Part shown: piece after piece, positions 47,319 to 63,498 of the stretch
Layout of the letters: the number at the start of each line of letters is the position of its first letter
Position numbering within the stretch: the stretch's first letter is position 1
Origin: an uncultured Hyphomicrobiales bacterium
Lineage (GTDB): Bacteria; Pseudomonadota; Alphaproteobacteria; Rhizobiales; Xanthobacteraceae
DNA length: 64,000 bases
Direction of reading: 5' to 3'
NCBI GenBank assembly: GCA_903878085.1
Contig: CAIRGJ010000012.1
Coordinates: forward strand, 62,001 to 126,000
Notes under the pieces: generated by a model
What the model was told of the DNA's origin: nothing
What the model saw: only the letters and a program-made list of their open reading frames with translations
The model's database searches: none
Program-made: the position numbers and the translations under genes

Positions 47319-47591
47319 ATGAGTAATCCGATGAGCATATTTCTCAAAGCAATCCTCGGTTTCGTACTGGGCTGCATTGGCGGCAGCGTAGGCGCCTTCG
47401 TGGTCAGTGCCGGTTTGATGCAGATTTTCATCTCGGCTGAAGAGTGCAGGTTTGAAGGCGGCTGCGGACTGGGCGCGGTGATGTTCGGCTTCTTCGGATT
47501 CTGGATCGGCGGCATCGTCGGTGCGATCTGGCTGGCAGTGCGCCAGGCAAAACGGCTCGAAGCCGCCCGCACCACGACGACCAATTCCTAG
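47319..47591 (+). CDS. Small two-helix membrane protein
   Basis: A 90-residue hypothetical protein with two hydrophobic helices (KAILGFVLGCIGGSVGAFVVSAGLM and MFGFFGFWIGGIVGAIWLAV) joined by a short loop with three Cys. The start is uncertain: ATG 47319 or 47331, neither with a clear ribosome-binding site. It follows emrB on the same strand and overlaps the convergent CoA-transferase gene end by four bases. I recognise no family. Confidence 0.6.
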   Translation: MSNPMSIFLKAILGFVLGCIGGSVGAFVVSAGLMQIFISAEECRFEGGCGLGAVMFGFFGFWIGGIVGAIWLAVRQAKRLEAARTTTTNS

Positions 47592-48709
47592 CGCGAAAAC
47601 TCTTTTCTGATATTTGCAGTGTGCTGCCCTAGCGCCGGCACCGCGCCGTAGTTGCGGGTTTCGTCCGCGCGCAGCGGCGCCGGCGCCGGCATCGAGGCCG
47701 GCCCGCTCGGGGTATCGACGGTGATCCGTCTTAAGTGAGGGTGCGTCGACAGCAGCGCGGAATCGTTGACCCGCGCGAAGCCGATCTCGGCGGCCTCCAG
47801 CATTTGCATCAGCGGCGCGACGTCATGGGCGGCAAAGACCGCGGCGACCTGGGCATCGGTCTCGCTGCGGTTCTCCAGACGTTTCGGCACGGTGGCGAAT
47901 TTCGGATCGGCCGCGAGCGCGGCATCGCCCAGCACTTTTTCTGCCAGCACGCGCCACTCGCGGTCGTTCTGGATCGCGATCAGGATGTCGGCATCGTCGC
48001 GCGTCTTGAACACGCCATAGGGCGCGATGGTCGGATGCGCCAGACCGATGCGCTTGAACGGATTGCCGTATTCTTCGTTCAGCAGTGGGATCGTCATCCA
48101 TTCCGCCATGCAGTCGAACATCGAGATGGAAATCGCGGCGCCTGCGCCGGTGCGCGAGCGCCCGATCAAGGCTTCGAGAATTGCCTCATAGGCGTTCAGG
48201 CCCGCGGCGATGTCGACGATGGACACGCCGACGCGCGCCGGGCCTTCCGGCCCGCCGGTGACCGAGGCCACGCCGGACTCGGCCTGGATCAAAAGGTCGT
48301 AGGCCTTGCGCTGTGCGTAAGGCCCGCTCTCGCCGTAGCCCGAAATCGAGCAGCAGATCAGCCGCGGATAATCCTGACGCAACCGCGCGACCGCGAAGCC
48401 GAGCTTGGCCAGCGCGCCGGGCTTGAGGTTCTGCACAAACACATCGGCTTTGGCGAGCATCGCTTCGAGCACGATCTTGTCGTCGGGCTTGCTCAGGTCA
48501 AGCACCACCGATTCCTTGCCGCGATTGAGCCAGACCAAGTGCGCGCTCTCGCCATGCACGATGTGATCGTAGCTGCGCGCGAAGTCTCCTTCCGGCCGCT
48601 CGACCTTGATGACGCGCGCGCCGGCGTCGGCCAGGCGACAGGTGCATTGCGGCGCCGCCACGGCCTGTTCCACGGAGACGACGAGGAGGCCTTCGAGCGG
48701 GAGCGTCAT
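47588..48709 (-). CDS. CaiB/BaiF family CoA transferase (family III)
   Basis: A 373-residue CoA transferase. Typical motifs: AAPQCTCRLADAGARVIKVERPEGDFARSYD, LVWLNRGKESVVLDL, ISGYGESGPYAQRKAYDLLIQAESG with the catalytic Asp in AYDL, and a C-terminal AEIGFARVND. It moves CoA between carboxylic acids in the cytoplasm, for example succinyl- to itaconyl- or mesaconyl-type acids. It starts 1 bp after the acyl-CoA dehydrogenase stop, so the two act on the same CoA ester pathway; the acid is unknown. Confidence 0.92.
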   Translation of the reverse strand: MTLPLEGLLVVSVEQAVAAPQCTCRLADAGARVIKVERPEGDFARSYDHIVHGESAHLVWLNRGKESVVLDLSKPDDKIVLEAMLAKADVFVQNLKPGALAKLGFAVARLRQDYPRLICCSISGYGESGPYAQRKAYDLLIQAESGVASVTGGPEGPARVGVSIVDIAAGLNAYEAILEALIGRSRTGAGAAISISMFDCMAEWMTIPLLNEEYGNPFKRIGLAHPTIAPYGVFKTRDDADILIAIQNDREWRVLAEKVLGDAALAADPKFATVPKRLENRSETDAQVAAVFAAHDVAPLMQMLEAAEIGFARVNDSALLSTHPHLRRITVDTPSGPASMPAPAPLRADETRNYGAVPALGQHTANIRKEFSR

Positions 48710-48710
48710 A

Positions 48711-49883
48711 TTAATACGATCTTGGCAGGCCGAGCACATGCTCGGCGAGATATGACAGGATCATGTTGGTGGAGATCGGCGCCACCTGATAGAGCCGGGT
48801 CTCGCGGAATTTGCGCTCGACGTCGTATTCCTCGGCAAAGCCGAAGCCGCCATGGGTCTGCACGCACATGTCGGCGGCGAACCACGAGGCGTCGGCGGCG
48901 AGCAGTTTCGCCATGTTGGCCTCGGGCCCGATATCCTCGCCGGCTTCGTATTTGCGCGCGGCCTCGTGCACCATCAGTTCGGCGGCGCGCATCTGCGCAT
49001 AGGCGCGCGCGATCGGAAACTGCACGCCCTGGTTCTGCCCGATCGGACGGCCGAACAGTTCGCGTTCCTTGGCGTAAGCCGTGGCCTTGGCGATGAACCA
49101 TTTGGCGTCGCCGACGCATTCGGCGGCGATCAGAATGCGCTCGGCATTCATGCCCGCCAGAATATAGCGGAAGCCGCTGCCCTCCTCGCCGATCAGATTT
49201 TCCGCCGGTACACGCAAATCGTCGAAGAACACCTGCGTGGTGGCGTGATTCATCATGGTGCGGATCGGCGTGATGTTCATTTTGGCGCTTTGCGCCAGCC
49301 GCATATCGACGAGGAACACCGACAGGCCGTCGGTGCGCTTCTTGACCTGATCGCGCGGCGTCGTGCGCGCCAGCAGCAGCATCAGGTCGGAATGCTCGGC
49401 GCGTGAGGTCCATATCTTCTGGCCGTTGATGACGTAGTGGTCGTTGCCTTCGCGCTTGGCCGTGGTGCGCAGAGCGAGCGTGTCGGTGCCCGAAGTCGGC
49501 TCGGTGACGCCGAAGGCCTGCAGCCGCAATTCGCCGCTGGCGATCTTCGGCAGATAGCGCGCTTTCTGCTCAGGCGAACCGTGCCGCAGGATCGTGCCCA
49601 TGGTGTACATCTGGGCGTGGCAGGCAGCGCCGTTGCAGCCAGCGGCGTGCACTTCTTCCAGAATGGCGGCGGCGGCGCTGATGGTCAGGCCGCTGCCGCC
49701 GAATTCTTCCGGGATCAGCGCGGCGAGATAGCCGGCTTCGGTCAGCGCATTGACGAAGTCGGTCGGATAGGCGCGGTCGCGATCGAGCGCGCGCCAATAT
49801 TCGCCGGGGAATTTAGCGCACAGCGCGCGCACCGATTCACGGATATCGGCATATTGGTCGGGTTCGGTGGGACGTTTACTCAT
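48711..49883 (-). CDS. Acyl-CoA dehydrogenase family protein
   Basis: A 390-residue flavoenzyme. N-terminal domain ALIPEEFGGSGLTISAAAAILEEVHAAG, FAD-binding QAFGVTEPTSGTDTLALRTTA and INGQKIWTSRAEHSDL, and the C-terminal QTHGGFGFAEEYDVERKFRETRLYQVAPISTNM segment are all standard. It oxidises an acyl-CoA to the 2,3-enoyl-CoA, passing electrons to ETF. The sequence resembles enzymes for short or branched acyl-CoAs. The ATG at 49883 is used; the longer frame reads through a palindromic repeat. It lies upstream of the CoA transferase. Confidence 0.93.
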   Translation of the reverse strand: MSKRPTEPDQYADIRESVRALCAKFPGEYWRALDRDRAYPTDFVNALTEAGYLAALIPEEFGGSGLTISAAAAILEEVHAAGCNGAACHAQMYTMGTILRHGSPEQKARYLPKIASGELRLQAFGVTEPTSGTDTLALRTTAKREGNDHYVINGQKIWTSRAEHSDLMLLLARTTPRDQVKKRTDGLSVFLVDMRLAQSAKMNITPIRTMMNHATTQVFFDDLRVPAENLIGEEGSGFRYILAGMNAERILIAAECVGDAKWFIAKATAYAKERELFGRPIGQNQGVQFPIARAYAQMRAAELMVHEAARKYEAGEDIGPEANMAKLLAADASWFAADMCVQTHGGFGFAEEYDVERKFRETRLYQVAPISTNMILSYLAEHVLGLPRSY

Positions 49884-49901
49884 CCGGCTAACTCTCGATT
49901 C

Positions 49902-49989
49902 GTCATGCCCGGCTTTATGCCGGGCATTCCCGCCTTGCTTTGCTGCCACTTGTAAGGACGTGGATGGCCGGCACAAGGCCGGCCATGAC
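49902..49989. repeat. Intergenic palindrome, GTCATGCCCGG type
   Basis: Two hairpins, ATGCCCGGCTTTATGCCGGGCAT and GGCCGGCACAAGGCCGGCC, with inverted outer ends GTCATG (49902) and CATGAC (ending 49989). It lies just upstream of the acyl-CoA dehydrogenase start and is related to elements at 35905-35973 and 56883-56981. Confidence 0.75.
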
Positions 49990-50022: not shown

Positions 50023-50937
50023 TCAAATCGGGTCCCAGTCGAATACCTCTTCGGAGCGCTCCAGCGGCGTCAGCGCGCCGCCGAACGCGCCCTTGAGTTG
50101 CGCCGCCAGCTTCTCCGGCGTCCAGCCGTCCGAGCGGTGAATGGTGCGGACCGGCCGCGGCTGGTTGAACAGGAACACTTCGTTGTTGCGCACCGACAGG
50201 ATCTGGCCGGAGACGCCGGACGCCGCGTCAGAGCCGAGATAGACCGCGAGCGGCGCGATCTTTTCTGGCGTCATTTCCTGGAACGCCTTGATGCGGCGCT
50301 TCTCCTCGTCCGTTTGCGCCGGGATCGACTCGATCATGCGGGTCCAGGCAAAGGGCGCGATGCAGTTCGAGCGCACGTTGAAGCGCGCCATGTCGAGCGC
50401 GATGCCGCGCGACAGGCCGACGATGCCCATCTTCGCCGCCATGTAATTGGCCTGGCCGAAATTGCCGACCAGACCGGAGGTCGAGGTCATGTGCACGTAA
50501 GCGCCGGAGTTTTGCTCGCGGAACAGGCCGGCGAGCGCGCGGCTCATGTTGAAGGCGCCGTTGAGGTGCACGTTGATGACGTCGGACCAATCCGACCAGC
50601 TCATCTTGTGGAAGATGACGTCGCGCAGAATGCCGGCATTGTTGACCAGGATGTCGACGCGGCCGAAGGCGTCGAGCGCGGCCTTGACGATCTGCTCGGC
50701 GTTTTTCGGATCGACGATCGACAGCGTCGAGGCGATGGCTTGACCGCCGGCTTGCTTGATCGCGGCGACGGTGTCCTGCGCCGGGCCGGCGTCGGCGCCC
50801 TCGCCTTGCAGGCTGGCGCCGATGTCGCAGACCACGACGCGCGCGCCTTCCTTAGCTAGCAGCATGGCGATGGCGCGGCCGATGCCGCGCCCGCCGCCGG
50901 TGACGATGGCGGTTTTGTTCGAAACAATGCCTGGCAT
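50023..50937 (-). CDS. SDR family oxidoreductase (HSD17B4/FabG-like)
   Basis: A 304-residue short-chain dehydrogenase. TAIVTGGGRGIGRAIAMLLA binds the cofactor; active-site residues appear in NNAGILRDVIFHKMSWSDWSDVI and SGLVGNFGQANYMAAKMG (Tyr-x3-Lys). The FHKMSWSDW and NFGQANYMAAK segments match the SDR part of peroxisomal multifunctional enzyme type 2, which oxidises 3-hydroxyacyl-CoA. The C-terminal ~60 residues are an extension seen in this group. With the ACAD and CoA transferase downstream on the same strand it makes an acyl-CoA degradation set. Confidence 0.9.
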   Translation of the reverse strand: MPGIVSNKTAIVTGGGRGIGRAIAMLLAKEGARVVVCDIGASLQGEGADAGPAQDTVAAIKQAGGQAIASTLSIVDPKNAEQIVKAALDAFGRVDILVNNAGILRDVIFHKMSWSDWSDVINVHLNGAFNMSRALAGLFREQNSGAYVHMTSTSGLVGNFGQANYMAAKMGIVGLSRGIALDMARFNVRSNCIAPFAWTRMIESIPAQTDEEKRRIKAFQEMTPEKIAPLAVYLGSDAASGVSGQILSVRNNEVFLFNQPRPVRTIHRSDGWTPEKLAAQLKGAFGGALTPLERSEEVFDWDPI

Positions 50938-51186
50938 TAATTCTGTCTCCCACACCGACCGCGCATGCTTCGCACTGCACGCGCTGCAATTCCTTAACCA
51001 AGGTCGCCGTCAATCTTGCCCTTGCAAGCTTGCCGTGTCGAGGCTCGCGCCTTTATTGACCGGCGAATACAGGCCTTCACTTGAAATGGTCCGGATTTCA
51101 CACATTTTTCACCGCAACATTTTACGCGGCCTTATTGCGGCGGGCGTTCAATCGAGATTGTCGGCGATCATTGGCTGGGGGGCCAA

Positions 51187-51948
51187 ATGTCATTCGGCAA
51201 TTTCGCTTCATTCGTAAAGACGCCTTTTGGTGCGCGATTGCTTCGCGGCGGCATCGCGGCCGCGCTGGCCGCTTGCACGATCTGCGCCGCCATAGGCAGC
51301 GGTCATGCCGCGCCCACCAGTTCCTTTGCAACGGTGCCGTTTCTCACGCCTGCATCGGCCGGAATAGATCAATCAACCGCAACGTCATTCAAAGAACGCT
51401 TCGAGGTTGCGCAAACATCGCGCGCCGGCGAGATGTTTGCGAGCCTGACTTATTACGTCCCGCAGACGGAACTAACGACGGCAAGCCTGCCACGCCGCCA
51501 AAAAATTGTACCGTCCGCCAAGGCACTTGTCGGGACCGCTTCGATGTACAACCCGACCGATCCAAAAGACATGGATGCCGGCAATGAAGAACTTGCGTCA
51601 GGGGAACGGTACGATCCGAACGGCTGGACCGCCGCGATCCGCACGGATTTGCGCGCCCAGTTCGGCGGCGTCCGCTTTGGCAGGAACTATCGCCCGGCAT
51701 TCGCCTTGGTGACGAGCGGCGGAAAACAGGTCGTTGTCAGAATCAACGACATCGGGCCGCTGAAGCGCGGCCGCATCATCGACCTGAATATACGGTCGAT
51801 GCGCTACTTCGACCCGACATTGCAGCTTGGACTCATTGGTAAAGTCAGCGTGACGCCTTTGGTTGGTCAGGATGTGGCGCTCGGCCCCGTCGACGACAGC
51901 CCACCGGTCAACGTCGCCAGCCGCTTTGACGAACTGCTGCTGCGCTAG
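51187..51948 (+). CDS. RlpA-like exported protein (double-psi beta-barrel)
   Basis: A 253-residue exported protein. A signal peptide covers about residues 1-42 (basic start, hydrophobic AALAACTICAAIGSGHA). The double-psi beta-barrel covers about 115-225: VGTASMYN, ELASGERYDPNGWTAAIRTDL and VVVRINDIGPLKRGRIIDLN, matching the septal lytic transglycosylase RlpA fold with its acidic catalytic positions. No lipobox Cys and no SPOR domain are seen, so it is a short secreted variant. It ends overlapping the convergent first MetE-like gene by four bases. Confidence 0.85.
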   Translation: MSFGNFASFVKTPFGARLLRGGIAAALAACTICAAIGSGHAAPTSSFATVPFLTPASAGIDQSTATSFKERFEVAQTSRAGEMFASLTYYVPQTELTTASLPRRQKIVPSAKALVGTASMYNPTDPKDMDAGNEELASGERYDPNGWTAAIRTDLRAQFGGVRFGRNYRPAFALVTSGGKQVVVRINDIGPLKRGRIIDLNIRSMRYFDPTLQLGLIGKVSVTPLVGQDVALGPVDDSPPVNVASRFDELLLR

Positions 51949-53045
51949 CCCCAAACTTCAGTCGCCACTTCGACGATCATCTTGAGCTTCGCCCACTGCT
52001 CGTCCTCGGCCAGCGTATTGCCTTCCTCGGTGGAGGCGAAGCCGCATTGCGGCGACAGGCAAAGCTGCTCGAGCGGAATGAACTTGGCGGCCTGATCGAT
52101 ACGGCGTTTGATCTCGTCTTTGGATTCGAGCCGTCCGGTCTTGCTGGTGACCAGACCGAGCACCACCATCTTGTCCTTCGGCACCATGCGCAGCGGCTCG
52201 AAGCCGCCGGCGCGGTCGCTGTCGTATTCCATGAAGAAGCCGTGGACGTTGATCTGGTTGAACAGAATTTCCTGCACCCCCTCGTAGCCGCCGGCGCCCA
52301 TATAGGTGGATTTATAATTACCGCGGCACATGTGCATGGTGATGGTCATGTCCTGCGGAATATCCGACATCGCGGTGTTGATCAGATCGCCGTACAGCGT
52401 GCCGAGCTTTGCCGGATCGTCGCCGCGCGCGGTCATCTGGTCGCGGTATTTCGAGTCGCACAGCATGGCGATGAAGACTTCGTCGAGCTGCAGATAGCGG
52501 CAGCCGGCATCGGCAAAACCGCGCACCGCCTGCCGGTAAGCCTGGCCGAGATCGGCGAAGAATTCATCCAGGCGCGGATAGATATTCTTGTCGATCGGCG
52601 TGCGCATTGGCCGGCCGTAGATCGCCGACGGCGCCGGAATAGTGATTTTCGGCGTGCGCTTCGTATGCGCCGCGACGAACTTGAAATGCTCGATCATCGG
52701 ATGATGGCGCGAGCCGAGCTTGCCGGTGACCTGCGCGCCTTCATTGCGGGTGGTGACGGCGGCGAACGCAACGCCGGTGTCCATGACGTGCTTCTCGACG
52801 CCGTCGAGGCCCCAGAGAAAATCGAGATGCCACCAGGAGCGGCGGAATTCGCCGTCGGTGATCGACTGCAGGCCGACGTCTTCCTGCTTCTTGATGACGC
52901 GCTCGATTTCGCGGTCTTCGACCGCCTTCAGCGCGGCGGCATCGATTTCGGCTTTGGCGAATTGCTCGCGGGCCTGCTTCAACGCGGCGGGACGCAACAG
53001 GCTGCCGACGTGGTCGGCGCGAAACGGCGGCTTGGTGCGGTGCAT
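51945..53045 (-). CDS. Cobalamin-independent methionine synthase II (MetE C-terminal-like) family protein, copy 4 in reading direction
   Basis: A 366-residue TIM-barrel methyltransferase-like protein, equal to the C-terminal half of MetE only. The zinc ligands appear in MHMCRGNYKST (His and Cys) and in the C-terminal CLSPQCGFASTEEG (Cys). The N-terminus RTKPPFRADHVGSLLRP is a hallmark of this stand-alone family. It moves a methyl or alkyl group to or from a zinc-bound thiolate. The presumed substrate loop SWWHLDFLWGLDG differs from the other three copies. Lacking the folate-binding N-terminal half of MetE, it is not a classic MetE. Confidence 0.88.
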   Translation of the reverse strand: MHRTKPPFRADHVGSLLRPAALKQAREQFAKAEIDAAALKAVEDREIERVIKKQEDVGLQSITDGEFRRSWWHLDFLWGLDGVEKHVMDTGVAFAAVTTRNEGAQVTGKLGSRHHPMIEHFKFVAAHTKRTPKITIPAPSAIYGRPMRTPIDKNIYPRLDEFFADLGQAYRQAVRGFADAGCRYLQLDEVFIAMLCDSKYRDQMTARGDDPAKLGTLYGDLINTAMSDIPQDMTITMHMCRGNYKSTYMGAGGYEGVQEILFNQINVHGFFMEYDSDRAGGFEPLRMVPKDKMVVLGLVTSKTGRLESKDEIKRRIDQAAKFIPLEQLCLSPQCGFASTEEGNTLAEDEQWAKLKMIVEVATEVWG

Positions 53046-53073
53046 GAGTTTCTCCCCCGCAGAATTGATTTTT

Positions 53074-53167
53074 GTCGTCCCGGCCGAGCGAAGCGAGAGC
53101 CGGGACCCATACTCCGTGTTCTATCGATAGGCCGCGACGTATGGGTCCCCGCCTTCGCGGGGACGAC
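53074..53167. repeat. Intergenic palindrome with GTCGTCCC ends
   Basis: GTCGTCCCGGCCGAGCGAAG (53074) and GTATGGGTCCCCGCC...GGGACGAC (ending 53167) are inverted ends, with the CCCATAC/GTATGGG pair inside. It matches the ends of the longer element at 38712-38898. It separates the first two MetE-like genes. Confidence 0.7.
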
Positions 53168-53169
53168 AG

Positions 53170-54276
53170 TTAATGGCCCCATACCTCTTCCGCCACCTCG
53201 ACGATGGTACGCAGCTTCGCCCACTGCTCGTCTTCGGCCAAGATATTGCCTTCCTCGGTGGAGGCGAAGCCGCATTGCGGCGACAGGCAAAGCTGCTCGA
53301 GATCGATGAACTTCGAAGCCTCATCGATGCGGCGCTTGAGTTCGTCCTTCGACTCGAGTCGGCCCGACTTCGACGTGACCAGCCCGAGCACCACCGTCTT
53401 GCCCTTGGGCACGAAACGCAACGGCTCGAAGCCGCCGGCGCGGTCGCTGTCGTATTCCATGAAGTAGCCGTGGACATTGATCGAATTGAACAGCACCTCG
53501 GCCACCGGCTCGTAACCGCCCGACGCGACGAAGGTCGATTGGAAATTGCCGCGGCACAGATGCATCGCGATGGTCATGTCCGGTGGAATGTCGGAGATCG
53601 CCGAGTTGATCAGCTTTGCGTAAATGCCCGGCAATTCTTCGGCGCTCTCGCCGCGCTCGGTGACCTGTGCGCGCAAGCTTGGGTCGCACAGATAAGCGAG
53701 GTTGACCTCGTCCAGCTGCAGGTAACGGCAGCCGGCGTCGGCGAAAGCTCGCACGGCTTTGCGGTAGGACTGACCCAGATCGGCATAGAACGCGCCCATC
53801 TCCGGATAGATCGATTCCGGGATGGCATCGCGGCCATAGCGGAAGTGCATCGACGACGGCGACGGGATCGTCATTTTCGGTACCACACGCGTATGCGCGG
53901 CGACATATTTGAAGTGCTCGATCATCGGGTGACCAGAGAAGGTGCCGAGCTTGCCGGTGACGCGCATCATCATCGGCTTGGGGTTGACGCCCTGGAACTT
54001 GATCTTGCGTTCGCCGAGATAGGCTTGCGCGCCATCGAGCGCGCCGAGGAAATCGTAATTCCAGAAGGCGCGGCGGAATTCGCCGTCGGTGACGGCTTTC
54101 AGTCCGACGTCTTCCTGCTTCTTGATGACGGCGGAGATCTCGCGGTCTTCAACGACTTTAAGTTGCTCAGGCGTGATCTCGCCGCGCTCGCGCTGGGCGC
54201 GGGCGTCTTTCAGCGCCTTGGGACGCAGCAGGCTGCCGACGTGGTCGGCGCGAAAGGGCGGCTTGGTGCGTTGCAT
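53170..54276 (-). CDS. Cobalamin-independent methionine synthase II family protein, copy 3
   Basis: A 368-residue paralogue with the same layout: MQRTKPPFRADHVGSLLRP at the start, zinc ligands in AMHLCRGNFQST and CLSPQCGFASTEEG. Its C-terminal third is the most like the 51.9 kb copy (INVHGYFMEYDSDRAGGFEPLRFVPKG). The active-site-adjacent segment reads AFWNYDFLGALDG, and the loop YLGERKIKFQGVNPKP differs strongly between copies. The ATG at 54276 is preferred over the frame start at 54288. The end lies 3 bp after the intergenic palindrome. Confidence 0.88.
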   Translation of the reverse strand: MQRTKPPFRADHVGSLLRPKALKDARAQRERGEITPEQLKVVEDREISAVIKKQEDVGLKAVTDGEFRRAFWNYDFLGALDGAQAYLGERKIKFQGVNPKPMMMRVTGKLGTFSGHPMIEHFKYVAAHTRVVPKMTIPSPSSMHFRYGRDAIPESIYPEMGAFYADLGQSYRKAVRAFADAGCRYLQLDEVNLAYLCDPSLRAQVTERGESAEELPGIYAKLINSAISDIPPDMTIAMHLCRGNFQSTFVASGGYEPVAEVLFNSINVHGYFMEYDSDRAGGFEPLRFVPKGKTVVLGLVTSKSGRLESKDELKRRIDEASKFIDLEQLCLSPQCGFASTEEGNILAEDEQWAKLRTIVEVAEEVWGH

Positions 54277-54363
54277 GGTTCGGCACACTTAAGGAGCTTC
54301 GGAAAAAAGCCGGCCGGCGTCTGGCGACGCCGACCGCTTATGATGTCAACTATAGGCGAAACT

Positions 54364-55635
54364 TTATTTCGCGATCGCCTTTTCGTAGGGGTAGATCACC
54401 TCGCCGCTCTTGAACTCCGGCGGATAGATGATCACTTCGGTCGACAGATCGCGGAAGTCGTCGATCTTGTTGCCCTTGATGTTCTGGAACTGCGCGGCCA
54501 TCACGCGTTCCACCACCCACTCACCGTCCTTGCCGAATTTGACGTCGCCGACAACGGTCTTGAACGTCGCTTTGCGGATGTAGTCGGCGAGTTTGCCGTC
54601 ATCGAGCGTCTTGGTCTCGCCGATCGCCTGGCCGAGCACCTGCAGATAGGAATAGGCCCAGACCGGCATGTAGTAGCCGAGCGGGTCGACGCCCTCGGCG
54701 CCGGCACGTTCCTGATACTTCTTCAGGAGTTCGAGCGAGCCCGGGAACGCCATCGATTTCTGCGGCAGCCAGGTTTCGAAGTTAACCAGACCGTTGAGCA
54801 TCGGGCCAAGCTGGGTCTTGAACACCGTCGCCTGCAGGCCGACCATCGCGCCGCCCCACATCTTCGGCTTGAAGCCGACTTCGAGCATGGCCTTGACCAT
54901 GCCGACCGAGTCGAGCGGATAGGAGCAGATCACGAACAAATCGGGATTGGTCGCCGCCACCGCACGCACGACGGGCGAGAAGTCGGTGGTCGCCGGCGGA
55001 TAGGTCTTGTTGTAAACGACCTTGAAGCCGGCGGTCTTGGCATTCTCCGCCGCGCCTTCGCAGGCATTGCGGCCGAACTCGGCGTCCGCCATCGCGATGG
55101 CGATGGTCTGCGGCTTCGGCGTCTGCTGCTCGGCCACTTTGAAGAAGCCGCGCGTGAAGGCCGGCTTCGGCGTCGGGCCATTCGCGATCATCGAGAAATA
55201 GCGATCGTATTTGAACTGCTCGTTCACGCCGGTGCCGAACAGGCTGATGAACAGCTTTTTCTTCTGGATCGCGATTGGAATCGCAGGCGCGATCTGGCCG
55301 GAAGCATAACCGCTGACGATCAGATCGACTTTGTCGATGTCCAGCAGCTTGGTGTAGATGCCGGGCACGGTCGACGGATTGCTCTGGTCGTCGAAGTAGA
55401 CGAGCTTGACTTGACGCCCCAGCAGCCCGCCCTTGGCGTTGGTGTCGTCTTCCCAGATTTTCATCGCCAGCAAAGACGACTTGCCGTTGGCCGACAACGG
55501 GCCGGTCAGCGACATACCGAAGCCGATCTTGATGGGCTCCTGCGCTTGGGCCGGCGCGGCGGCAAACAGCAGCGCGGCGGCCGCAGCCGAACACGCCAAC
55601 TGGCTTAAATTAGTCCATTGCGATCTCGTGGACAT
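54364..55635 (-). CDS. ABC transporter substrate-binding protein, branched-chain amino acid (LivJ/HAAT) type
   Basis: A 423-residue periplasmic binding protein. The signal peptide (about 1-32) ends AAPAQA. The mature chain starts EPIKIGFGMSLTGPLSANGKSSLLAMKIWEDD, the Peripla_BP_6 signature, and continues with GLLGRQVKLVYFDDQSNPSTVPGIYTKLLD and a C-terminal lobe with DPLGYYMPVWAYSYLQVLGQAI. No permease or ATPase genes are in the window. Members of this group bind amino acids, amides or aromatic acids. AGGAAGG supports the ATG at 55635 over the ATG at 55644. It sits between MetE-like genes 2 and 3. Confidence 0.92.
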   Translation of the reverse strand: MSTRSQWTNLSQLACSAAAAALLFAAAPAQAQEPIKIGFGMSLTGPLSANGKSSLLAMKIWEDDTNAKGGLLGRQVKLVYFDDQSNPSTVPGIYTKLLDIDKVDLIVSGYASGQIAPAIPIAIQKKKLFISLFGTGVNEQFKYDRYFSMIANGPTPKPAFTRGFFKVAEQQTPKPQTIAIAMADAEFGRNACEGAAENAKTAGFKVVYNKTYPPATTDFSPVVRAVAATNPDLFVICSYPLDSVGMVKAMLEVGFKPKMWGGAMVGLQATVFKTQLGPMLNGLVNFETWLPQKSMAFPGSLELLKKYQERAGAEGVDPLGYYMPVWAYSYLQVLGQAIGETKTLDDGKLADYIRKATFKTVVGDVKFGKDGEWVVERVMAAQFQNIKGNKIDDFRDLSTEVIIYPPEFKSGEVIYPYEKAIAK

Positions 55636-55749
55636 TTTTTCCATCCCTTCCTGTTGATTTCTCTGGATACGGCGTAATCAGGTTGTGATCTTCTACGATA
55701 TCCCGCGTGGCGACCCTATCGGCAAGCGGCCGGGTAGATTTGAGCAAGA

Positions 55750-56859
55750 TCAATAGCGGCCCCACACCTCGTCGGCCAGCTCCACGATCATCCGCAGCTT
55801 GGCCCACTGCTCGTCCTCGGCCAGCACGTTGCCTTCCTCGGTGGAGGCAAAGCCGCACTGCGGCGACAGGCAAAGCTGATCGAGCGCGACGTATTTGGTG
55901 GCCTCGTCGATGCGGCGCTTGATGTCGTCTTTGGATTCCAGCCGCCCGCTTTTAGACGTGACCAGACCGAGCACCAGTTGCTTCTTGCCCTTGGGGAAGA
56001 AGCGCAGCGGCTCGAAGCCGCCGGCGCGGTCGCTGTCGTATTCGAGGAAATAACCGTCGAGATTGGTATTGCCGAGCAATTCCGCGGCGACGAACTCGTA
56101 ACCGCCCTCGGCGATCCAGGTCGAGCGGAAATTACCGCGGCAGGAGTGCATGGTGATCGCCATGTCGGCGGGTTTGCCTTCGAGCGCGGCGCGGGTGACC
56201 TGCGCATAGATCGCCGGCAGCTTGTTTGGATCGTCACCGCGTTTGACCGATTCCTCGCGCTCGTGCGGGTCGCACATCATCGCCCAGGCGGTGTCGTCGA
56301 GTTGCAGATAACGGCAGCCGGCGTCGTAGAAGGCGCGGATCGCCTTGCGCCACGTCTCCGCAATGTCGTCAAAGAATACATCGATGTCCGGGTAAGCGTC
56401 CTTGCTGACCCGCGCCCGGCCCTGCCTGAAGTGGAAGGTCGACGGCGCCGGGATCGTCATCTTCGGCGTGACGTTGCAGTGCGCCTTAAGAAATTTGAAA
56501 TGCTCGAGGTGTGAATGACCGGCGAAGCCGACCTTGCCGTCGATCAGAATGCCTTCGCTCTTGGTCTCGACGCCGTGGAATTTGATCGCCGGCATCGGCA
56601 CCATCGTGACGCCTTGCAGCTCGCGGAAGAAATCGAAATGCCACCACGAGCGGCGGAATTCGCCGTCGGTGGCCAGCTGCAGGCCGACGTCCTGCTGCTT
56701 CTTGATGACCTTCTCGATTTCGCGGTCTTCGACCGCCTTCAACGCGGCGGCGTCGATTTCGCCTTTGGCGAATTTGGCACGGGCGTCTTTCAGCGCGGCC
56801 GGCCGCAACAAACTGCCGACATGATCGGCGCGGAACGGCGGTGTGGCGCGCTGGGACAT
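55750..56859 (-). CDS. Cobalamin-independent methionine synthase II family protein, copy 2
   Basis: A 369-residue paralogue starting MSQRATPPFRADHVGSLLRP. Zinc ligands: TMHSCRGNFRST and CLSPQCGFASTEEG. It shares SWWHFDFFRELQG with the 57 kb copy's SFWHFDFFSMLDG and LDGYFLEYDSDRAGGFEPLRFFPKG, so copies 1 and 2 form one pair and copies 3 and 4 the other. It lies directly upstream of the ABC binding-protein gene, with about 115 bp between stop and start codons. Confidence 0.88.
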   Translation of the reverse strand: MSQRATPPFRADHVGSLLRPAALKDARAKFAKGEIDAAALKAVEDREIEKVIKKQQDVGLQLATDGEFRRSWWHFDFFRELQGVTMVPMPAIKFHGVETKSEGILIDGKVGFAGHSHLEHFKFLKAHCNVTPKMTIPAPSTFHFRQGRARVSKDAYPDIDVFFDDIAETWRKAIRAFYDAGCRYLQLDDTAWAMMCDPHEREESVKRGDDPNKLPAIYAQVTRAALEGKPADMAITMHSCRGNFRSTWIAEGGYEFVAAELLGNTNLDGYFLEYDSDRAGGFEPLRFFPKGKKQLVLGLVTSKSGRLESKDDIKRRIDEATKYVALDQLCLSPQCGFASTEEGNVLAEDEQWAKLRMIVELADEVWGRY

Positions 56860-56882
56860 ATGTTTCGCTCCCTATTTTTCTT

Positions 56883-56981
56883 GTCATGGCCGGGCTTGAC
56901 CCGGCCATCCCGCGTAGGGACGCGTTGTGCTCTCCTAAGCGGGATCACCGGGTCACGCGCTTTGCGCGGCCCGGTGATGAC
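56883..56981. repeat. Intergenic palindromes, GTCATGGCCGGG type
   Basis: A hairpin ATGGCCGGGCTTGACCCGGCCAT at 56886-56908 and a second GGATCACCGGGTCACGCGC/GCGCGGCCCGGTGATGAC near 56942-56981. The outer ends are GTCATGG and its inverse. It separates MetE-like copies 1 and 2. Confidence 0.75.
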
Positions 56982-56992
56982 ACGTTATTAGA

Positions 56993-58105
56993 TTACTTCC
57001 CCCAAACTTCCTTGCTCAGATCCACGATCATCTTGAACTTGGCCCACATCTCGTCCTCGGCCAGCACGTTGCCTTCCTCGGTCGAGGCAAAGCCGCATTG
57101 CGGCGACAGCGCGAGCTGTTCGAGCGCGACGAACTTGGTCGCCTCCTGGATGCGCCGTTTGATGTCCTCGGGCTGCTCCAGCTGGCCGGACTTCGACGTG
57201 ATCAGGCCAAGCACAACGATCTTGTTGCCCTTCGGCAGGAAGCGCAGCGGTTCAAAACCGCCGGCGCGATCGGTGTCATATTCCAGGAAGTAGCCATCGT
57301 AGTTGCACTTGGCGAGCAGGCTTTCGGCCACCGGCTCATAACCGCCCGACGAGATGAACGTGGAGCGGAAATTGCCGCGGCAGACATGGGTGGTGATCGT
57401 CATGTCAGCGGGCTTGGCCTCAAGCGCCTTGTTGATGCACTTGGTGTAGGTGTCCTGCAGATGATCGACGTCGAGGCCGCGGTCGCGCGCCTTCTGCAAT
57501 TCCTCTTTCGAGCAGAGGTAGGCCCAGGCGGTGTCGTCAAACTGCAGATAGCGGCAGCCCGCCGCGTAGAACGCTTTGATCGCGTTCTGATAGGCGATGG
57601 CCAGATCGTCGAAGATGGCGTCGCGGCTGGCGTAAGCGGCTTTGTTGACCGAGCCCGGCTCCAAACGGAAATGCAGCACAGTCGGGCTGGGGATCGTCAT
57701 CTTCGGCGTCACCTTGGTGTGCGCCTTCAGAAACTTGAAATGCTCCAGCATCGGATGATTGGCGGAGAAGCCGATCTTGCCGTTGATGCGGATCGACTGC
57801 GCCTTGGTCTGCACGCCCTGAAACTGGATGCCGTGGTCAAGCTCATAGAGCTCGCAGCCATCGAGCATGCTGAAAAAATCGAAGTGCCAGAAGGAGCGGC
57901 GGAATTCGCCGTCGGTCGCAAGCTGCAGGCCGACGTCTTCCTGCTTCTTGATGATCTTCTCGATCTCGCGGTCTTCAACTTCCTTGAGCTGAGCCGCGGT
58001 GATCTCGCCCTTCTCGCGCCTCGCGCGAGCCTGCTTGACCGGCGCGGTGCGCAGAATGCTGCCGACATGGTCGGCGCGGAACGGCGGTTTGGTACGCTGC
58101 GTCAT
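56993..58105 (-). CDS. Cobalamin-independent methionine synthase II family protein, copy 1
   Basis: A 370-residue paralogue, first of the four in the reading direction, starting MTQRTKPPFRADHVGSILRT. Zinc ligands: TTHVCRGNFRST and ALSPQCGFASTEEG; the residue before LSPQC is Ala where the other three have Cys. Other differences: LGLITSKSGQLEQPEDIKRR and KCNYDGYFLEYDTDRAGG. A palindromic repeat lies just upstream, then the MetF-like gene on the same strand. Confidence 0.88.
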   Translation of the reverse strand: MTQRTKPPFRADHVGSILRTAPVKQARARREKGEITAAQLKEVEDREIEKIIKKQEDVGLQLATDGEFRRSFWHFDFFSMLDGCELYELDHGIQFQGVQTKAQSIRINGKIGFSANHPMLEHFKFLKAHTKVTPKMTIPSPTVLHFRLEPGSVNKAAYASRDAIFDDLAIAYQNAIKAFYAAGCRYLQFDDTAWAYLCSKEELQKARDRGLDVDHLQDTYTKCINKALEAKPADMTITTHVCRGNFRSTFISSGGYEPVAESLLAKCNYDGYFLEYDTDRAGGFEPLRFLPKGNKIVVLGLITSKSGQLEQPEDIKRRIQEATKFVALEQLALSPQCGFASTEEGNVLAEDEMWAKFKMIVDLSKEVWGK

Positions 58106-58128
58106 GAGATCCTCCAGGGTCGTTTTTT

Positions 58129-58177
58129 GCGCGTGATCTTATCCGAAAATCGGTGCCCACTTTTCGGGATCACGCGC
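58129..58177. repeat. GCGTGATC-type intergenic palindrome, copy 1
   Basis: GCGTGATC...GATCACGC inverted ends with an inner CCGAAAA/TTTTCGG pair (ATCCGAAAATCGGTGCCCACTTTTCGG-like core). It matches copies at 59034-59078 and 61394-61443. It sits between the MetF-like gene and MetE-like copy 1. Confidence 0.8.
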
Positions 58178-58185
58178 TTAGCACG

Positions 58186-59019
58186 TCAGGCGGCAATTCG
58201 TCCCGCAGCGGCTTCGCATGCATAGCGGGCGGTTTCAACTGCCCCGCCGAATGAAAAATAATGCGGGCTGGCGCCGAGGTCGCCGGCTGTTTCCAGGGCC
58301 GCCAGAATGGCATCCGGGCCGGCAGCTTGGCCGGCAACTTGGCCGATCAGACCGCGACCGGTGCCGGACATCAGGCCGCGCAAGGAGGCGGAGACGCCGC
58401 ATCGTTTGGCGTAGCGCAGCAGCCCGGTGACGCTGGCGGGGCCGGCCATGCCGACCTTCACCGGCACGGTGATGCCGCAGGCGCGCAATTGCCGCAGCCA
58501 GGCGACGATCCGCTCCGGCGAGAACGAGAACTGACTGACGATGCTGACCCGCAGACCGGCGGCGCGGGCCGCGGCGATCTTCTGGTCGAGCGCGGCTTCC
58601 AGCCGGCTCAGCGCGATGCGCGGATGGCCTTCCGGATAGCCGCCGATGCCGATGTCCTCGATGCCGGCCTCGCGTAATCCGCCGTTCTGGATCACCGACA
58701 GCGCATCGGCGAACGGCCCCGACGACTCGACGTCGCCGCCAATGATCAGAAGCCGCTTAATATCCGCCTCGCCGCGCAGTCCGGCGAGCAGTTCGCTCAG
58801 TTGCTTGGCGCTGGCGATACGCCGCGCGGCAATATGGGCGACCGGCTCCAGACCGGCCTTGCGCAGGCCCGCCGCAGCGCCGACCTGCGCCTGCGGATCG
58901 ACCGTCGGCACCGCGGTCAGATAAACCGGTGTGCCGGGCGGCAGGATTGCGGCCAGCGCGGCGATCTCGGCCGCGTCCGGCCGCGTGGCTTCGAGCGAGA
59001 AGTTCCGGGTAATGCCCAT
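58186..59019 (-). CDS. Methylenetetrahydrofolate reductase (MetF)-like protein
   Basis: A 277-residue protein with the MTHFR barrel pattern: FSLEATRP with the catalytic-position Glu, VAHIAAR, LLIIGGDVESSGPF (the GD position), IGGYPEGHP (the YPEVHP equivalent) and IVSQFSFSPERI (the TQFFFD equivalent). It should interconvert 5-methyl- and 5,10-methylene-tetrahydrofolate with FAD. The sequence is divergent from housekeeping MetF, with GIT in place of a longer N-terminus. The ATG at 59019 is used; upstream codons come from a palindrome. Its place beside four MetE-like genes suggests it handles 5-methyl-THF made there. Confidence 0.85.
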   Translation of the reverse strand: MGITRNFSLEATRPDAAEIAALAAILPPGTPVYLTAVPTVDPQAQVGAAAGLRKAGLEPVAHIAARRIASAKQLSELLAGLRGEADIKRLLIIGGDVESSGPFADALSVIQNGGLREAGIEDIGIGGYPEGHPRIALSRLEAALDQKIAAARAAGLRVSIVSQFSFSPERIVAWLRQLRACGITVPVKVGMAGPASVTGLLRYAKRCGVSASLRGLMSGTGRGLIGQVAGQAAGPDAILAALETAGDLGASPHYFSFGGAVETARYACEAAAGRIAA

Positions 59020-59033
59020 GCTTTTTTCTTCGC

Positions 59034-59078
59034 GCATGATCTGATCCGAAAACCGGTGACCACTTTTCTGGATCATGC
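59034..59078. repeat. GCGTGATC-type intergenic palindrome, copy 2
   Basis: GCATGATC...GATCATGC inverted ends with the CCGAAAACCGGTGACCACTTTTC-like core. It occupies almost the whole gap between the HTH-methyltransferase stop and the MetF-like start. Confidence 0.8.
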
Positions 59079-59079
59079 G

Positions 59080-60489
59080 TTACTCCCGCCGGCGCGAGAT
59101 CACGAAAGACTCGTCGTAGAACCACAGCCCGCCGTGCTGCTGCAGCACGTCGCGCGTCGCCTCGATGTAGCGGCGGTCGCTGTTGACGTCGGCCAGACGG
59201 TCGTCCTCGATTTGCGCCACGTAGATCGCGGCATTCCAGGCGGCGAGCAGCGTCGAGGTGCCGATCGACGATGATATTTCCGACGGCAGCGTGTGCATCT
59301 CGTAGCGGAACAGCGAACGCTCGTCGGAATAGGCGTTGAAGTTGAGATCGCGGGCGGCAGATCCGAGTTCGTGCTTCACCACCTTGAGCAATTCGTGGCG
59401 GCTATGCATGAACGGATTATCCTCCGGCCAGACCTTGTGAATAATCTCCATGCCGGGATCGCGTCCGTAGGAGTGGATCGCGATCATGCGGCCGCCCGGC
59501 CCGAGCGCCCGCGCCAAAGGCGCCAGCACGCGCTTGGCCTTGAACTCTACCGAGGCGCGCGCGCGATAGGGCTGCGACGCGATGACAAGATCGTAATCGG
59601 CGACCGTACCGCCCGGCTTGGGGATGACCTGATCGAGCAGGAACTTGTGATCGTTGCGATAGAGCACCAGCACCACCGGGCGCTCATAGACCGGATTGCC
59701 GCTTTTCGGCGAGACCCGCGCTTTCCAGTTTTCGCCGAGGAACGGTTCGAGCGCGGTGATCTGCTGCTCGAAACTGTGTGCGGTGTTGCCTTCCAGCGGC
59801 ATTTCTTTCCAGACCATGCTGGACGCGGCCGTCACCGACTTGACCGACAGCCACGGCGCTTCGGCGTAAGCGAGATTGGTCAGCACGATCACGCTGGACG
59901 GATGCTCGATGAATCGGTCGGCCATCTTCTGCAGCGTGAGGCGCACATCCTCGAGGCTGATTTCCTTGGCCACGATATAAAACGGCATGGTCGGATAGCG
60001 GTCATGCATCGAGCGCATCACGCGCGCCAGCACGGTGCCGTCGCCGACACCGGCATCGAACACGCGCACCGCCGGCGGCCGCGGGTGAATATTGGCGAGT
60101 TCGAGGCTGACGCGGTTGGCGACTTCCCATTTCTCGCTGCACGTATTCACGAACAGCAGATATTTCTGCCGGTTGTCGAAGAAGCGGAAATTGCGCTGCG
60201 GGTCGTCGCTCGCCTGGCCCGATGCGAGCGGCGGCGCCAGCGGCTTCATCGGCGGCATTGCGGTCTGCGTGGCGGGATCGAACAACATGCGGCGGCGCGC
60301 CGGCGCGGCGCCCGCATGGTGCGCCATGAAGGAGCGGATGCGGTCCAACGTATCGGTGGTGATGCGGCCGCCGTTGCGCAGGCGGCTGGCGAGCTTGCCG
60401 TCGTTGACGGCGCGGCGGCCGAAGGTCGATTCCGCCAGTCCGCGCTGGCGGCAGAATTCGCCGATCTCCTGAAGGATGGCTTCGTTCAT
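59080..60489 (-). CDS. SAM-dependent methyltransferase with N-terminal HTH-like domain
   Basis: A 469-residue protein. Residues 1-55 (EIGFCRQ-like EIGEFCRQRGLAESTFGRR, AVNDGKLASRLRNGGRITTDTLDRIRSFM) resemble a small HTH found in other alphaproteobacterial regulators. Residues ~60-100 are a Pro/Ala linker. The rest is a methyltransferase-like domain with motif I RVFDAGVGDGTVLARVM and a C-terminal GGRMIAIHSYGRDPGMEIIHKVWP. The ATG at 60489 follows AAGGA. I know no characterised homologue. Five GTGGGC hexamers lie in its 275 bp upstream region. Confidence 0.78.
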   Translation of the reverse strand: MNEAILQEIGEFCRQRGLAESTFGRRAVNDGKLASRLRNGGRITTDTLDRIRSFMAHHAGAAPARRRMLFDPATQTAMPPMKPLAPPLASGQASDDPQRNFRFFDNRQKYLLFVNTCSEKWEVANRVSLELANIHPRPPAVRVFDAGVGDGTVLARVMRSMHDRYPTMPFYIVAKEISLEDVRLTLQKMADRFIEHPSSVIVLTNLAYAEAPWLSVKSVTAASSMVWKEMPLEGNTAHSFEQQITALEPFLGENWKARVSPKSGNPVYERPVVLVLYRNDHKFLLDQVIPKPGGTVADYDLVIASQPYRARASVEFKAKRVLAPLARALGPGGRMIAIHSYGRDPGMEIIHKVWPEDNPFMHSRHELLKVVKHELGSAARDLNFNAYSDERSLFRYEMHTLPSEISSSIGTSTLLAAWNAAIYVAQIEDDRLADVNSDRRYIEATRDVLQQHGGLWFYDESFVISRRRE

Positions 60490-60764: not shown

Positions 60765-61379
60765 TCAGATATCGAAGAAAACCGTTTCGTTATCGCCCTG
60801 GACGTGGATGTCGAAGCGATAGCACGAAGGCTCGGTGCCGGCCTCTTTGTGGGCAATCAGCGTCCCACGCCGGTCGGCGGGCACGAGGTTCAGGATCGAA
60901 TCGGTGGCGTTAGCGGCCTCGTCGGAGAAATACAGCCGCGTATAAATCTGCCGCAGCATGCCGCGCGAGAAGATGCAGACCACGATGTGCGGCGCCTGCG
61001 ATTTGCCGTTCGGGCCAGCGACCGCGCCGGGCTTGACGGTGTCGAAGCCGAACACGCCGTTCTTGTCGGTGGCGGAACGGCCGAAACCGGTGAACTTGGC
61101 GTTCGGCCGCGGCTGCTCGCCGCGCGCGTGAAGATAGCGGCCTTGCGAATCGGCCTGCCAGATTTCGATCATGGCGTCGTTGATTTGCACGCCGTCGCCG
61201 TCGGTGATGCGGCCCTCGATGTGGATCTTCTGGCCTGTGGCGTCGGGCGTGATCAGATTGTCGCCGACGGTTTCCTTCCAGCTATAGCTGCCGTTGGGGG
61301 CCCACTCGCAGCGTCCTTTGGGCGTCAGGCCGTAGGCGAAGAACGGGCCGACGGTTTGTGAAGGCGTAATGTCTGACAT
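60765..61379 (-). CDS. pcaG: Protocatechuate 3,4-dioxygenase, alpha subunit
   Basis: A 204-residue intradiol dioxygenase alpha chain, starting SDITPSQTVGPFFAYGLTP. It pairs with PcaH to cut protocatechuate between its hydroxyls to 3-carboxy-cis,cis-muconate. It contains GDGVQINDAMIEIWQADSQGRY, PHIVVCIFSRGMLRQIYTRLYF and an ending CYRFDIHVQGDNETVFFDI; the Fe-binding Tyr/His set is not expected on the alpha chain. The ATG at 61379 is used. It follows pcaH with a palindromic repeat in the gap. Confidence 0.96.
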   Translation of the reverse strand: MSDITPSQTVGPFFAYGLTPKGRCEWAPNGSYSWKETVGDNLITPDATGQKIHIEGRITDGDGVQINDAMIEIWQADSQGRYLHARGEQPRPNAKFTGFGRSATDKNGVFGFDTVKPGAVAGPNGKSQAPHIVVCIFSRGMLRQIYTRLYFSDEAANATDSILNLVPADRRGTLIAHKEAGTEPSCYRFDIHVQGDNETVFFDI

Positions 61380-61393
61380 CATTGTTTCCTTAT

Positions 61394-61443
61394 GCGCGTG
61401 GTCCGATCCGAACGCCGGCTCTCCGGTTTTCGGGATCGGGCGC
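61394..61443. repeat. GCGTGATC-type intergenic palindrome, copy 3
   Basis: GCGCGTGGTCCGATCCGAAC...GGTTTTCGGGATCGGGCGC, inside the 63 bp gap between the pcaH stop and the pcaG start. It overlaps the first base of the pcaH stop. Confidence 0.7.
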
Positions 61444-62150
61444 TAGTGCTCGTCGTTGTCTAAGGGAGTCTGTTCACGGCCGCGCAGCACGATGTCCCAG
61501 CGGAAGCACAACGCCCAATCGGGAATGGTGTTTTCCAGATCGAAGGTCGAGACCATGCGCAGCCGCGCTTTTTCATCCGGCACCGAATTGAAGATCGGGT
61601 CGTAGGGGAACAGGTAATCGCCGGGGAAATACATCTGCGTGACCAGGCGGGTCAGGAACGACTGGCCGAACACCGAGAAGTGGATGTGATTGGGCCGCCA
61701 GGCGTTGTGATGATTGCCCCACGGATAGGCGCCGGGCTTCACCGTGATGAATTTGTAGTAGCCGTTCTTGTCGGTGATGGTGCGGCCAGTGCCGGTGAAG
61801 TTCGGATCGAGCGGCGCCGGGTGCTGATCGACGATGTGGACGTAGCGGCCGCAGGCATTGGCCTGCCAGATTTCCACCAGCGTGTCGGCGACCGGCCGCT
61901 TGTCCTCATCGTAAACGTGGCCGTGCACGATGATGCGCTCGCCCAGCGGCTCGCCTTTGTGCTGCTTGGTGAGATCGGCGTCGCCGTCCTGCACCGCGTC
62001 ATGGCCGAAAACCGGCCCGGTCAGTTCGGACAGCGTATGCGGCACGATGATCAGCGGCTTCGACGGCGAACGCTTGACCGTGCTTTTGTATTCCGGACTC
62101 AAGTGCTTCGGATAAGCGTTCAGGCTTTCCTTGGGATAGATCAGCGACAT
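61443..62150 (-). CDS. pcaH: Protocatechuate 3,4-dioxygenase, beta subunit
   Basis: A 235-residue catalytic chain with the Fe(III) ligands in the expected places: Tyr of GRYVHI, then Tyr and two His in KPGAYPWGN and RPNHIHFSVFG. The RVHGHVYDEDKRPVADTLVEIWQANACGRY-like segment is diagnostic of PcaH. The C-terminus ends in LRGREQTPLDNDEH. pcaF lies 12 bp upstream on the same strand, and pcaG follows, giving an operon order pcaF-pcaH-pcaG. Other beta-ketoadipate genes are not in the window. Confidence 0.97.
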   Translation of the reverse strand: MSLIYPKESLNAYPKHLSPEYKSTVKRSPSKPLIIVPHTLSELTGPVFGHDAVQDGDADLTKQHKGEPLGERIIVHGHVYDEDKRPVADTLVEIWQANACGRYVHIVDQHPAPLDPNFTGTGRTITDKNGYYKFITVKPGAYPWGNHHNAWRPNHIHFSVFGQSFLTRLVTQMYFPGDYLFPYDPIFNSVPDEKARLRMVSTFDLENTIPDWALCFRWDIVLRGREQTPLDNDEH

Positions 62151-62162
62151 TCCTGTTGTCCT

Positions 62163-63374
<1,212 letters not shown>

Positions 63375-63498
63375 TGACGGCCCCGGATTGCAATAATGCG
63401 GGCATTTGGCCCGGTTTTCGAAACCGTATTTACGGCCCGCCACGGACAGGGTCAAATGGCGAAACAGAGATAAGTTTGGGTTCCAACCAGTGGCAGCC

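Follow-up and report, generated by a model that had tools for sequence, protein, structure and literature searches.

The closest described relatives of the four MetE-like proteins treated here are the YxjG/YxjH proteins, such as YxjH of Lactobacillus and the Listeria protein whose structure, 1ypx, is the closest solved one. The four proteins, named E1 to E4, are encoded in a window of 64,000 nucleotides (positions 62,001 to 126,000 of contig CAIRGJ010000012.1, assembly GCA_903878085.1) from an uncultured Hyphomicrobiales bacterium; the window means this whole stretch, and positions without further mention refer to it. In Firmicutes, the yxjH gene lies in a methionine-regulated setting, according to the accessible part of the source (PMC6004538). 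E1 to E4 resemble the YxjG/YxjH proteins in family score, full-length match and fold, and E1 and E4 are 49–55% identical to 1ypx. What sets the window apart is the presence of four diverged copies within a single aromatic locus.

The core methionine synthases MesA to MesD share with E1 to E4 a MetE catalytic barrel without the folate domain as well as the zinc and homocysteine residues, as far as they are described in the available sections of PMC7857596. The LigM/S6MTHFR module, known from Sphingobium SYK-6 and, as Atu1420/Atu1418/Atu1419, from Agrobacterium fabrum, resembles the window locus in having a divergent methylenetetrahydrofolate reductase (MTHFR) beside protocatechuate-forming catabolism. 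In SYK-6 the reductase oxidizes the 5-methyl-tetrahydrofolate made by LigM and compensates for a missing glycine cleavage (PMC12585457). Some relatives of the window locus share LigM and a GntR/FCD regulator with this module, whereas no LigM was found in the genome of the window, and MetE-like copies and the orphan protein U494 are added. For O-demethylation in general, three enzyme classes are named in the accessible text of PMC12628177, namely Rieske oxygenases, P450s and tetrahydrofolate-dependent demethylases. A literature search, mostly short of full texts, yielded no assignment of O-demethylation to a MetE-like enzyme. The conserved arrangement described below is unreported-looking, with a known kind of enzyme in a new variant and setting, and it suggests that different plant-derived compounds may serve E1 to E4 as methyl donors, in a route not described before.

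Family Membership of E1 to E4

A preliminary description of the window had placed four MetE-like open reading frames (ORFs) at 51945-58105. All four are open on the reverse strand, score above the cut-off of PF01717 (4/4) and contain, as described there, the motifs SPQCGF, INVHG and DGYFLEYD together with the quoted loop strings. Furthermore, they match the NCBIfam model NF005085 (PRK06520) over their full length with 517.0, 537.2, 576.1 and 597.3 bits for E1 to E4, respectively (cut-off 313). They are not whole MetE enzymes, as with 366–372 amino acids they match the C-terminal half only, not the two-barrel protein of ~750 amino acids with its N-terminal folate half, and they reach 34.6–43.1 bits with TIGR01371 (whole MetE) against a cut-off of 930. 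Membership in LigM/DesA was likewise not found by score or by the GcvT-type fold, since the E proteins match PF01717 and the model of E4 matches MetE barrels. This model (predicted local distance difference test, pLDDT, 84.4) aligns with 1ypx at Z 40.8 (root-mean-square deviation 1.8 over 316 residues), with the MesD structure 3rpd at Z 32.5 and with the C-terminal halves of MetE at Z 28–32. Judged from their sequences, E1 to E4 are single-barrel MetE-like proteins of the PRK06520 (YxjG/YxjH) family, with a predicted dependence on zinc.

In the tree with outgroups, which contained three MesD rows (MesA, MesB, and MesC were left out), the E proteins group with PRK06520 members of Listeria and Priestia on a side of 19 rows (100/100), apart from MesD, XecA, and MetE. 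E1 to E4 are thereby outside the MesD group, and no DUF1852 (MesX) gene was named among the scanned neighbors in the window. XecA, an epoxyalkane:coenzyme M transferase with coenzyme M as acceptor, shares the superfamily and the zinc ligands with E1 to E4, and its acceptor residue is changed. The sequence used for it comes from a record named ‘2-hydroxypropyl-CoM lyase’, which we take to be XecA. The preliminary description had suggested a phylogeny of the family that includes XecA, and no link to it emerged: close kinship was rejected because of 20.1–20.6% identity to E4, the position on the opposite side of the 100/100 split and an asparagine where E1 to E4 have a serine. That they would, as XecA-like enzymes, use a different thiol as acceptor of an alkyl group is therefore barely credible.

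Active Site and Substrate Loops

The residues of the zinc and homocysteine sites were taken from E. coli MetE (PMC7857596) and are given in the numbering of E4; one odd row (L033) was dropped from the site alignment beforehand. The zinc ligands H240, C242, E275, and C337 are invariant in 107/107 rows of the four orthologue groups, which bears out the intact zinc site claimed earlier for all four copies, and the homocysteine residues S16, E67, and D190 are invariant in the same 107/107 rows. By this combination of zinc ligands with Ser/Glu/Asp, E1 to E4 would classify as homocysteine methyltransferases. The serine at S16 is also kept in the rows of MesD, archaeal split MetE and MetE. Since their site residues match those of homocysteine enzymes, the proteins seem adapted to homocysteine or methionine.

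The substrate loops had been described as divergent, and the loop after TDGE does differ as quoted, with differences that persist within the orthologue groups. The loop of E1 is the most strictly kept one (SWWHLDFLWGLDG, each position in at least 90% of 23 rows). Conservation within at least three groups combined with a difference between groups was found for 35 positions, of which 12 are located in barrel loops at the active-site end, delimited by hand from the structure model. Mapped on the model, the group-specific positions lean toward these loops, though weakly (p 0.0015 when only positions of variable consensus are considered, p 0.049 among all positions), which may be taken as mild support for the specialization proposed before. 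The letters DDT and DG of E3 and E4 recur in the Listeria protein, so that the likeness of E3 and E4 is partly a retained older state.

Descent of the Four Copies

Protein identity amounts to 67.2% between E1 and E2, 65.8% between E3 and E4 and 57.1–62.5% for the cross pairs. The counterparts in other loci are 77.5–89.0% (E1), 68.9–89.3% (E2), 73.6–88.3% (E3), and 71.3–86.2% (E4) identical to the window proteins, and these orthologue identities (69–89%) exceed those of every paralogue pair (57–67%). In a tree of 60 of the 151 rows, from which the longest branches were left out, each of E1, E2, E3, and E4 forms a separate clade with a support of at least 100/98. This supports the repeated duplication that had been suggested for the array and speaks against recent dosage. 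Because each copy forms its own clade common to several genera, the duplications are old; on this tree evidence, E1 to E4 are old duplicates, retained as four distinct forms across genera.

The arrangement as two pairs, also part of the preliminary description, holds by similarity (67 and 66%) and, for E1 and E2, by the trees. These two are neighbors in the 60-row tree, with two foreign rows beside E2, and their pairing holds at 99/96 in the tree with true outgroups. E3 and E4 form no exclusive pair: in the 60-row tree E3 lies on the side of E1 and E2 (96/91), its place being not settled in the tree with true outgroups, and E4 falls with homologues that other genera have as single copies (96/88). 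In an approximately unbiased test of a single clade of E1 and E2, orthologues beyond the named rows fall inside the clade, and its rejection was disregarded. Of the other row sets, one (A3) comprises 28 of the 85 E rows of loci L011–L039 and the window's own proteins; from another, the MesD/core-MetE2 rows, L044, L131 and three identical rows were left out.

The identical catalytic residues of all four copies would also fit redundant homocysteine methyltransferases with one common donor, kept for dosage or for different conditions. Such redundancy is quite improbable, as the copies fall into separate orthologue groups across genera with group-specific residues and are only 68–75% identical to each other in DNA.

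Gene Neighborhood

The E array is only a part of a longer conserved cluster (Table 1), the gene order of which recurs in related loci. While the preliminary description had recognized the array itself, it did not mention the binding-protein gene between the two pairs, and it overlooked the aromatic and folate genes around the array, which hint most clearly at a function. The genes on this strand are, in order, pcaF, pcaH, pcaG, U494, reductase, E4, E3, binding protein, E2 and E1, with gaps of at most 200 bases. A gap of 989 bases, which holds a gene on the forward strand, follows E1, and the genes for the SDR-family oxidoreductase, the acyl-CoA dehydrogenase and the CaiB-type protein then continue on the reverse strand.

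Table 1. Genes of the E cluster in the window.
Feature	Position	Strand	Evidence and remarks
CaiB/BaiF-type CoA-transferase	47588-48739	-	NCBIfam; adjoins dehydrogenase gene in relatives too
Acyl-CoA dehydrogenase, TTG start as listed	48711-49976	-	NCBIfam; counterpart in 19/29 related loci
SDR-family oxidoreductase	50023-50955	-	PF00106, 152 bits; kept beside array in relatives
E1, core MetE-like, YxjG/YxjH-type (PRK06520), 366 aa	51945-53045	-	Open ORF, PF01717, NF005085; own clade 100/100
E2, PRK06520 family, 372 aa, GTG start as listed	53170-54288	-	Open ORF, PF01717, NF005085; own clade 100/99
Periplasmic binding protein, amino-acid/amide-type ABC transporter, between both E pairs	54364-55644	-	PF13458, 181.8 bits
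E3, PRK06520 family, 369 aa	55750-56859	-	Open ORF, PF01717, NF005085; own clade 100/98
E4, PRK06520 family, 370 aa, closest to single-copy homologues elsewhere	56993-58105	-	PF01717, NF005085, 60-row tree, model
Divergent methylenetetrahydrofolate reductase, 296 aa	58186-59076	-	PF02219, 27.5 bits (cut-off 24)
U494, orphan protein, 494 aa	59080-60564	-	3 bases from reductase gene
pcaG, protocatechuate 3,4-dioxygenase alpha	60765-61382	-	TIGR02423, 250.2 bits (cut-off 126)
pcaH, protocatechuate 3,4-dioxygenase beta	61443-62150	-	TIGR02422, 371.9 bits (cut-off 296)
pcaF, 3-oxoadipyl-CoA thiolase	62163-63527	-	TIGR02430, 705.2 bits (cut-off 597)

A scan based on the reductase yielded 29 loci, all of them from metagenome-assembled genomes and ten labelled Pseudolabrys. 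U494 was found in 29/29, E4 in 28/29 and pcaGH in 26/29 of these loci. In L011, the locus without an E gene, the contig stops behind the reductase, and in L015, L031, and L033, which have no pcaGH, it starts at U494. All four E types are present in 15/29 loci, many contigs stopping inside the array. The E1–E3 clades travel with genes for the SDR, the acyl-CoA dehydrogenase and CaiB, often also with pcaGH, LigB or LigM. In addition, PcaI/J-type CoA-transferase genes and a MaoC hydratase were found in L034, and a LigB-type extradiol dioxygenase in L120 as well as, by tblastn, in L121. The PDB matches of the binding protein are general Leu/Ile/Val- and urea-type binding proteins and do not separate aromatic from amino-acid ligands.

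In L114, L119, and L120, which belong to three genera, the E array contains an inserted gene of a second MetE-like family (28% identity to E4, closer to MesD). Klebsiella plasmids carry, between IS5-family transposase genes, a YxjG-like gene with 55% identity to the window proteins (L130, CP146537.1, and L131, NZ_CP151665.1), together with genes for a urt-type ABC transporter and a helix-turn-helix protein; 31 Klebsiella plasmid records matched. A distant YxjG-like gene on a plasmid of Rhodococcus opacus (L133, 7989-9089) is located near folE, folP and an FdhF/YdeP oxidoreductase gene, a folate and formate setting.

Regarding riboswitch control, no Rfam family reached its gathering score in six loci (L111 and L116 left out), and the Rfam scan of the window gave sub-threshold matches only, to Brucella small RNA families and one Burkholderia family. 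GC-rich palindromic intergenic stretches are located at 53046-53169, 58110-58187, and 58995-59090, the latter two with weak sub-threshold matches to the Brucella small RNAs BASRCI27/BASRCI408. Elsewhere in the window, 13638-14477 encodes a protein that has twelve consecutive asparagines close to its N-terminus.

Reductase and U494

The reductase of the cluster is far from the canonical MetF (TIGR00676, 31.7 bits against a cut-off of 293.7). Its best PDB match is 7xg9 (E 2.4e-52, 181 bits vs. 36 for the next one, 101/259 aligned positions identical), which we take to be the catabolic MTHFR of SYK-6.

U494 has a helix-turn-helix-like N-terminus, seen in a poor model, and a class I methyltransferase-like motif, FDAGVGDGTVL, presumably motif I. 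No match was found in Pfam, NCBIfam or PDB, the PDB profile search included, and Methyltransf_12 was touched by 2/17 relatives of U494 at E 0.14. The model (pLDDT 51.4) gave no Foldseek match at 0.001 or better. The set of U494 proteins (A2) comprised 23 of the 27 rows of loci L011–L039 and the window's own U494.

Outside the genus, 13 hand-picked loci of the 53 with the reductase were inspected, and U494 lies just 5′ of the reductase in 12 of them, with AhcY between the two in L138; the exception, L146, is a contig of 5.9 kb. In the genus termed g2, perhaps Bradyrhizobium, the order transporter, E, U494, MetK, AhcY was found in 3/3 loci, MetK and AhcY being named by curated scores of the NCBIfam type. 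By these neighbors, U494 travels with methyl-folate and S-adenosylmethionine (SAM)-cycle genes, and it may be an enzyme or a SAM-sensing regulator.

Distribution and One-Carbon Genes

At the order level, 45/199 sampled genomes had a match, 38 of these with a single copy. In the family-level sample of 248 genomes, 178 had a match, at least 85 with two or more and at least 69 with three or more copies, as counted from the best 8 candidates scored per genome; by the same profile, the genome of the window has at least five. The reductase is present in 59 of the 85 family genomes with at least two E copies vs. 12 of the 163 others, shared ancestry being ignored in this count.

A gene of one family was found beside the E array in 8/27 neighborhood loci; its member in L039 is LigM (738.1 bits, cut-off 580), and six further members sit at places found by the LigM search. 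The LigM gene is located between the reductase and E4 in L038, L039, L117, and L118 and beside E4 in L113, L114, L119, and L121. In several related loci LigM is accompanied by a GntR/FCD regulator, which also occurs with the LigM-type module of Agrobacterium fabrum according to the accessible part of PMC7797058. In a first sample of 18 genomes of the genus, the LigM carriers have 1, 1, 2, 2, 2, 2, and 6 E copies and the 11 others 3–6 (Fisher, 3.8e-4). In a second, partly overlapping sample, two or fewer E genes were found in 4/19 complete loci without LigM. A replacement of extra E copies by LigM, favored by the first sample and not by the second, was not relied upon.

The genome of the window encodes MetH, and the E copies are therefore not needed as plain methionine synthases. 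A canonical MTHFR is also present (315.9 bits). A search of this genome for LigM and VanA_C gave no match to either, and no match over the cut-off was found for GDC-P, the glycine-cleavage P-protein, which is absent in 14/18 sampled genomes of the genus. VanA_C was found in 19/40 genomes of the genus, so others may demethylate by an oxygenase.

These data bear on the possibility that the copies never touch an aromatic compound and form methionine from 5-methyl-tetrahydrofolate supplied by a demethylase elsewhere, regenerating tetrahydrofolate as a methyl sink. We regard this as unlikely. The ~370-residue E proteins are without the N-terminal half of MetE, a single sink would not require four long-retained forms, and the genome, which has MetH, revealed no LigM or VanA_C to supply the methyl-folate. 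Nevertheless, the reductase and the LigM neighbor of the relatives both handle 5-methyl-tetrahydrofolate, the acceptor site of E1 to E4 is of the homocysteine-enzyme type, and in E. coli co-expression of LigM and MetE cuts the need for tetrahydrofolate ~500-fold, as stated in the available text of PMC12628177.

Elsewhere in the same genome, a MesD-like gene (L105, 9287-10309) groups with Comamonas MesD (100/99). At the homocysteine positions, two more MetE-like proteins of ~390 amino acids (L106 and L107) have D and E interchanged, and the gene in L106 is followed by a binding-protein gene. A helix-turn-helix regulator-like gene precedes MetH (L126, 4087-5142); by the start of its sequence it presumably resembles an ArsR-type fusion.

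Proposed Function

The homocysteine site, the aromatic company, the folate reductase, the four kept forms and the fact that no other O-demethylase was found favor a transfer of methyl groups from methoxyaromatic compounds to homocysteine. We tentatively propose, with a confidence a little short of even, that E1 to E4 became part of a unit that breaks down lignin-type aromatics with methyl (probably methoxyl) groups, the methyl donor differing from enzyme to enzyme. The location in the cluster and the conserved residues are observations, from which we infer the substrates, the acceptor and the direction of the reaction. Each enzyme would activate homocysteine as a zinc thiolate and would demethylate a donor of its own among the methoxybenzoates or methoxycinnamates, yielding methionine and a phenol that would end in protocatechuate. 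The methionine would be converted to SAM, and U494, as a SAM-binding methyltransferase, could transfer this methyl group further, with tetrahydrofolate as the simplest acceptor. The divergent reductase, working in the oxidative direction, would then form methylene-tetrahydrofolate. E4 might be the general or ancestral form and E1 to E3 the specialized ones. The proposal in its fullest form is possible but doubtful: a cobalamin-free and oxygen-free aromatic O-demethylation by a tandem set of zinc/homocysteine MetE-like enzymes, one per methoxyaromatic compound, which would form methionine directly from the methoxyl groups of lignin, with U494 and the reversed reductase feeding the one-carbon pool of bacteria without the P-protein.

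Several points weigh against this transfer. No precedent was found for the attack of a zinc thiolate on an aryl methyl ether, and the fold and role of U494 are unproven predictions. The window locus is without the MaoC hydratase gene that its relatives have, and in other genera a long distance separates the E array from U494 and the reductase. In the second sample, all four E genes are present in 4/7 LigM loci, so LigM is no simple replacement of E copies. The co-occurrence of reductase and multiple copies was counted regardless of shared ancestry. One partial GCV_T match in the genome of the window (29.3 bits) exceeds the Pfam cut-off of 25.6; we take it to be a YgfZ-like protein. Finally, the oldest E neighborhoods, those of g2 with transporter, MetK and AhcY and of the Klebsiella plasmids with the urt-type transporter, are without an aromatic gene.

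The transporter genes beside E in g2 (3/3 loci) and on the Klebsiella plasmids, like the binding-protein gene within the window array, would fit N- or S-methylated compounds (betaines, sulfonium compounds) as donors, taken up by the amino-acid/amide-type ABC transporter, with the aromatic genes sharing the plant-litter niche. Such donors would need none of the SDR, acyl-CoA dehydrogenase, CaiB, pcaGH, LigB, and LigM genes that accompany E1 to E3, which makes them rather unlikely, even though yxjH of Lactobacillus paracasei has a methionine T-box and is up in methionine-poor medium, as given in the accessible part of PMC6004538.

O-demethylation is a bottleneck of lignin use. If E1 to E4 do transfer methyl groups from methoxyaromatic compounds to homocysteine, MetE-like O-demethylases would constitute a fourth class next to the three named ones, with four natural specificities to compare. 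This would also provide a function for the multi-copy YxjG/YxjH genes, found with two or more copies in at least 85 of the 248 family genomes, and for the orphan U494.

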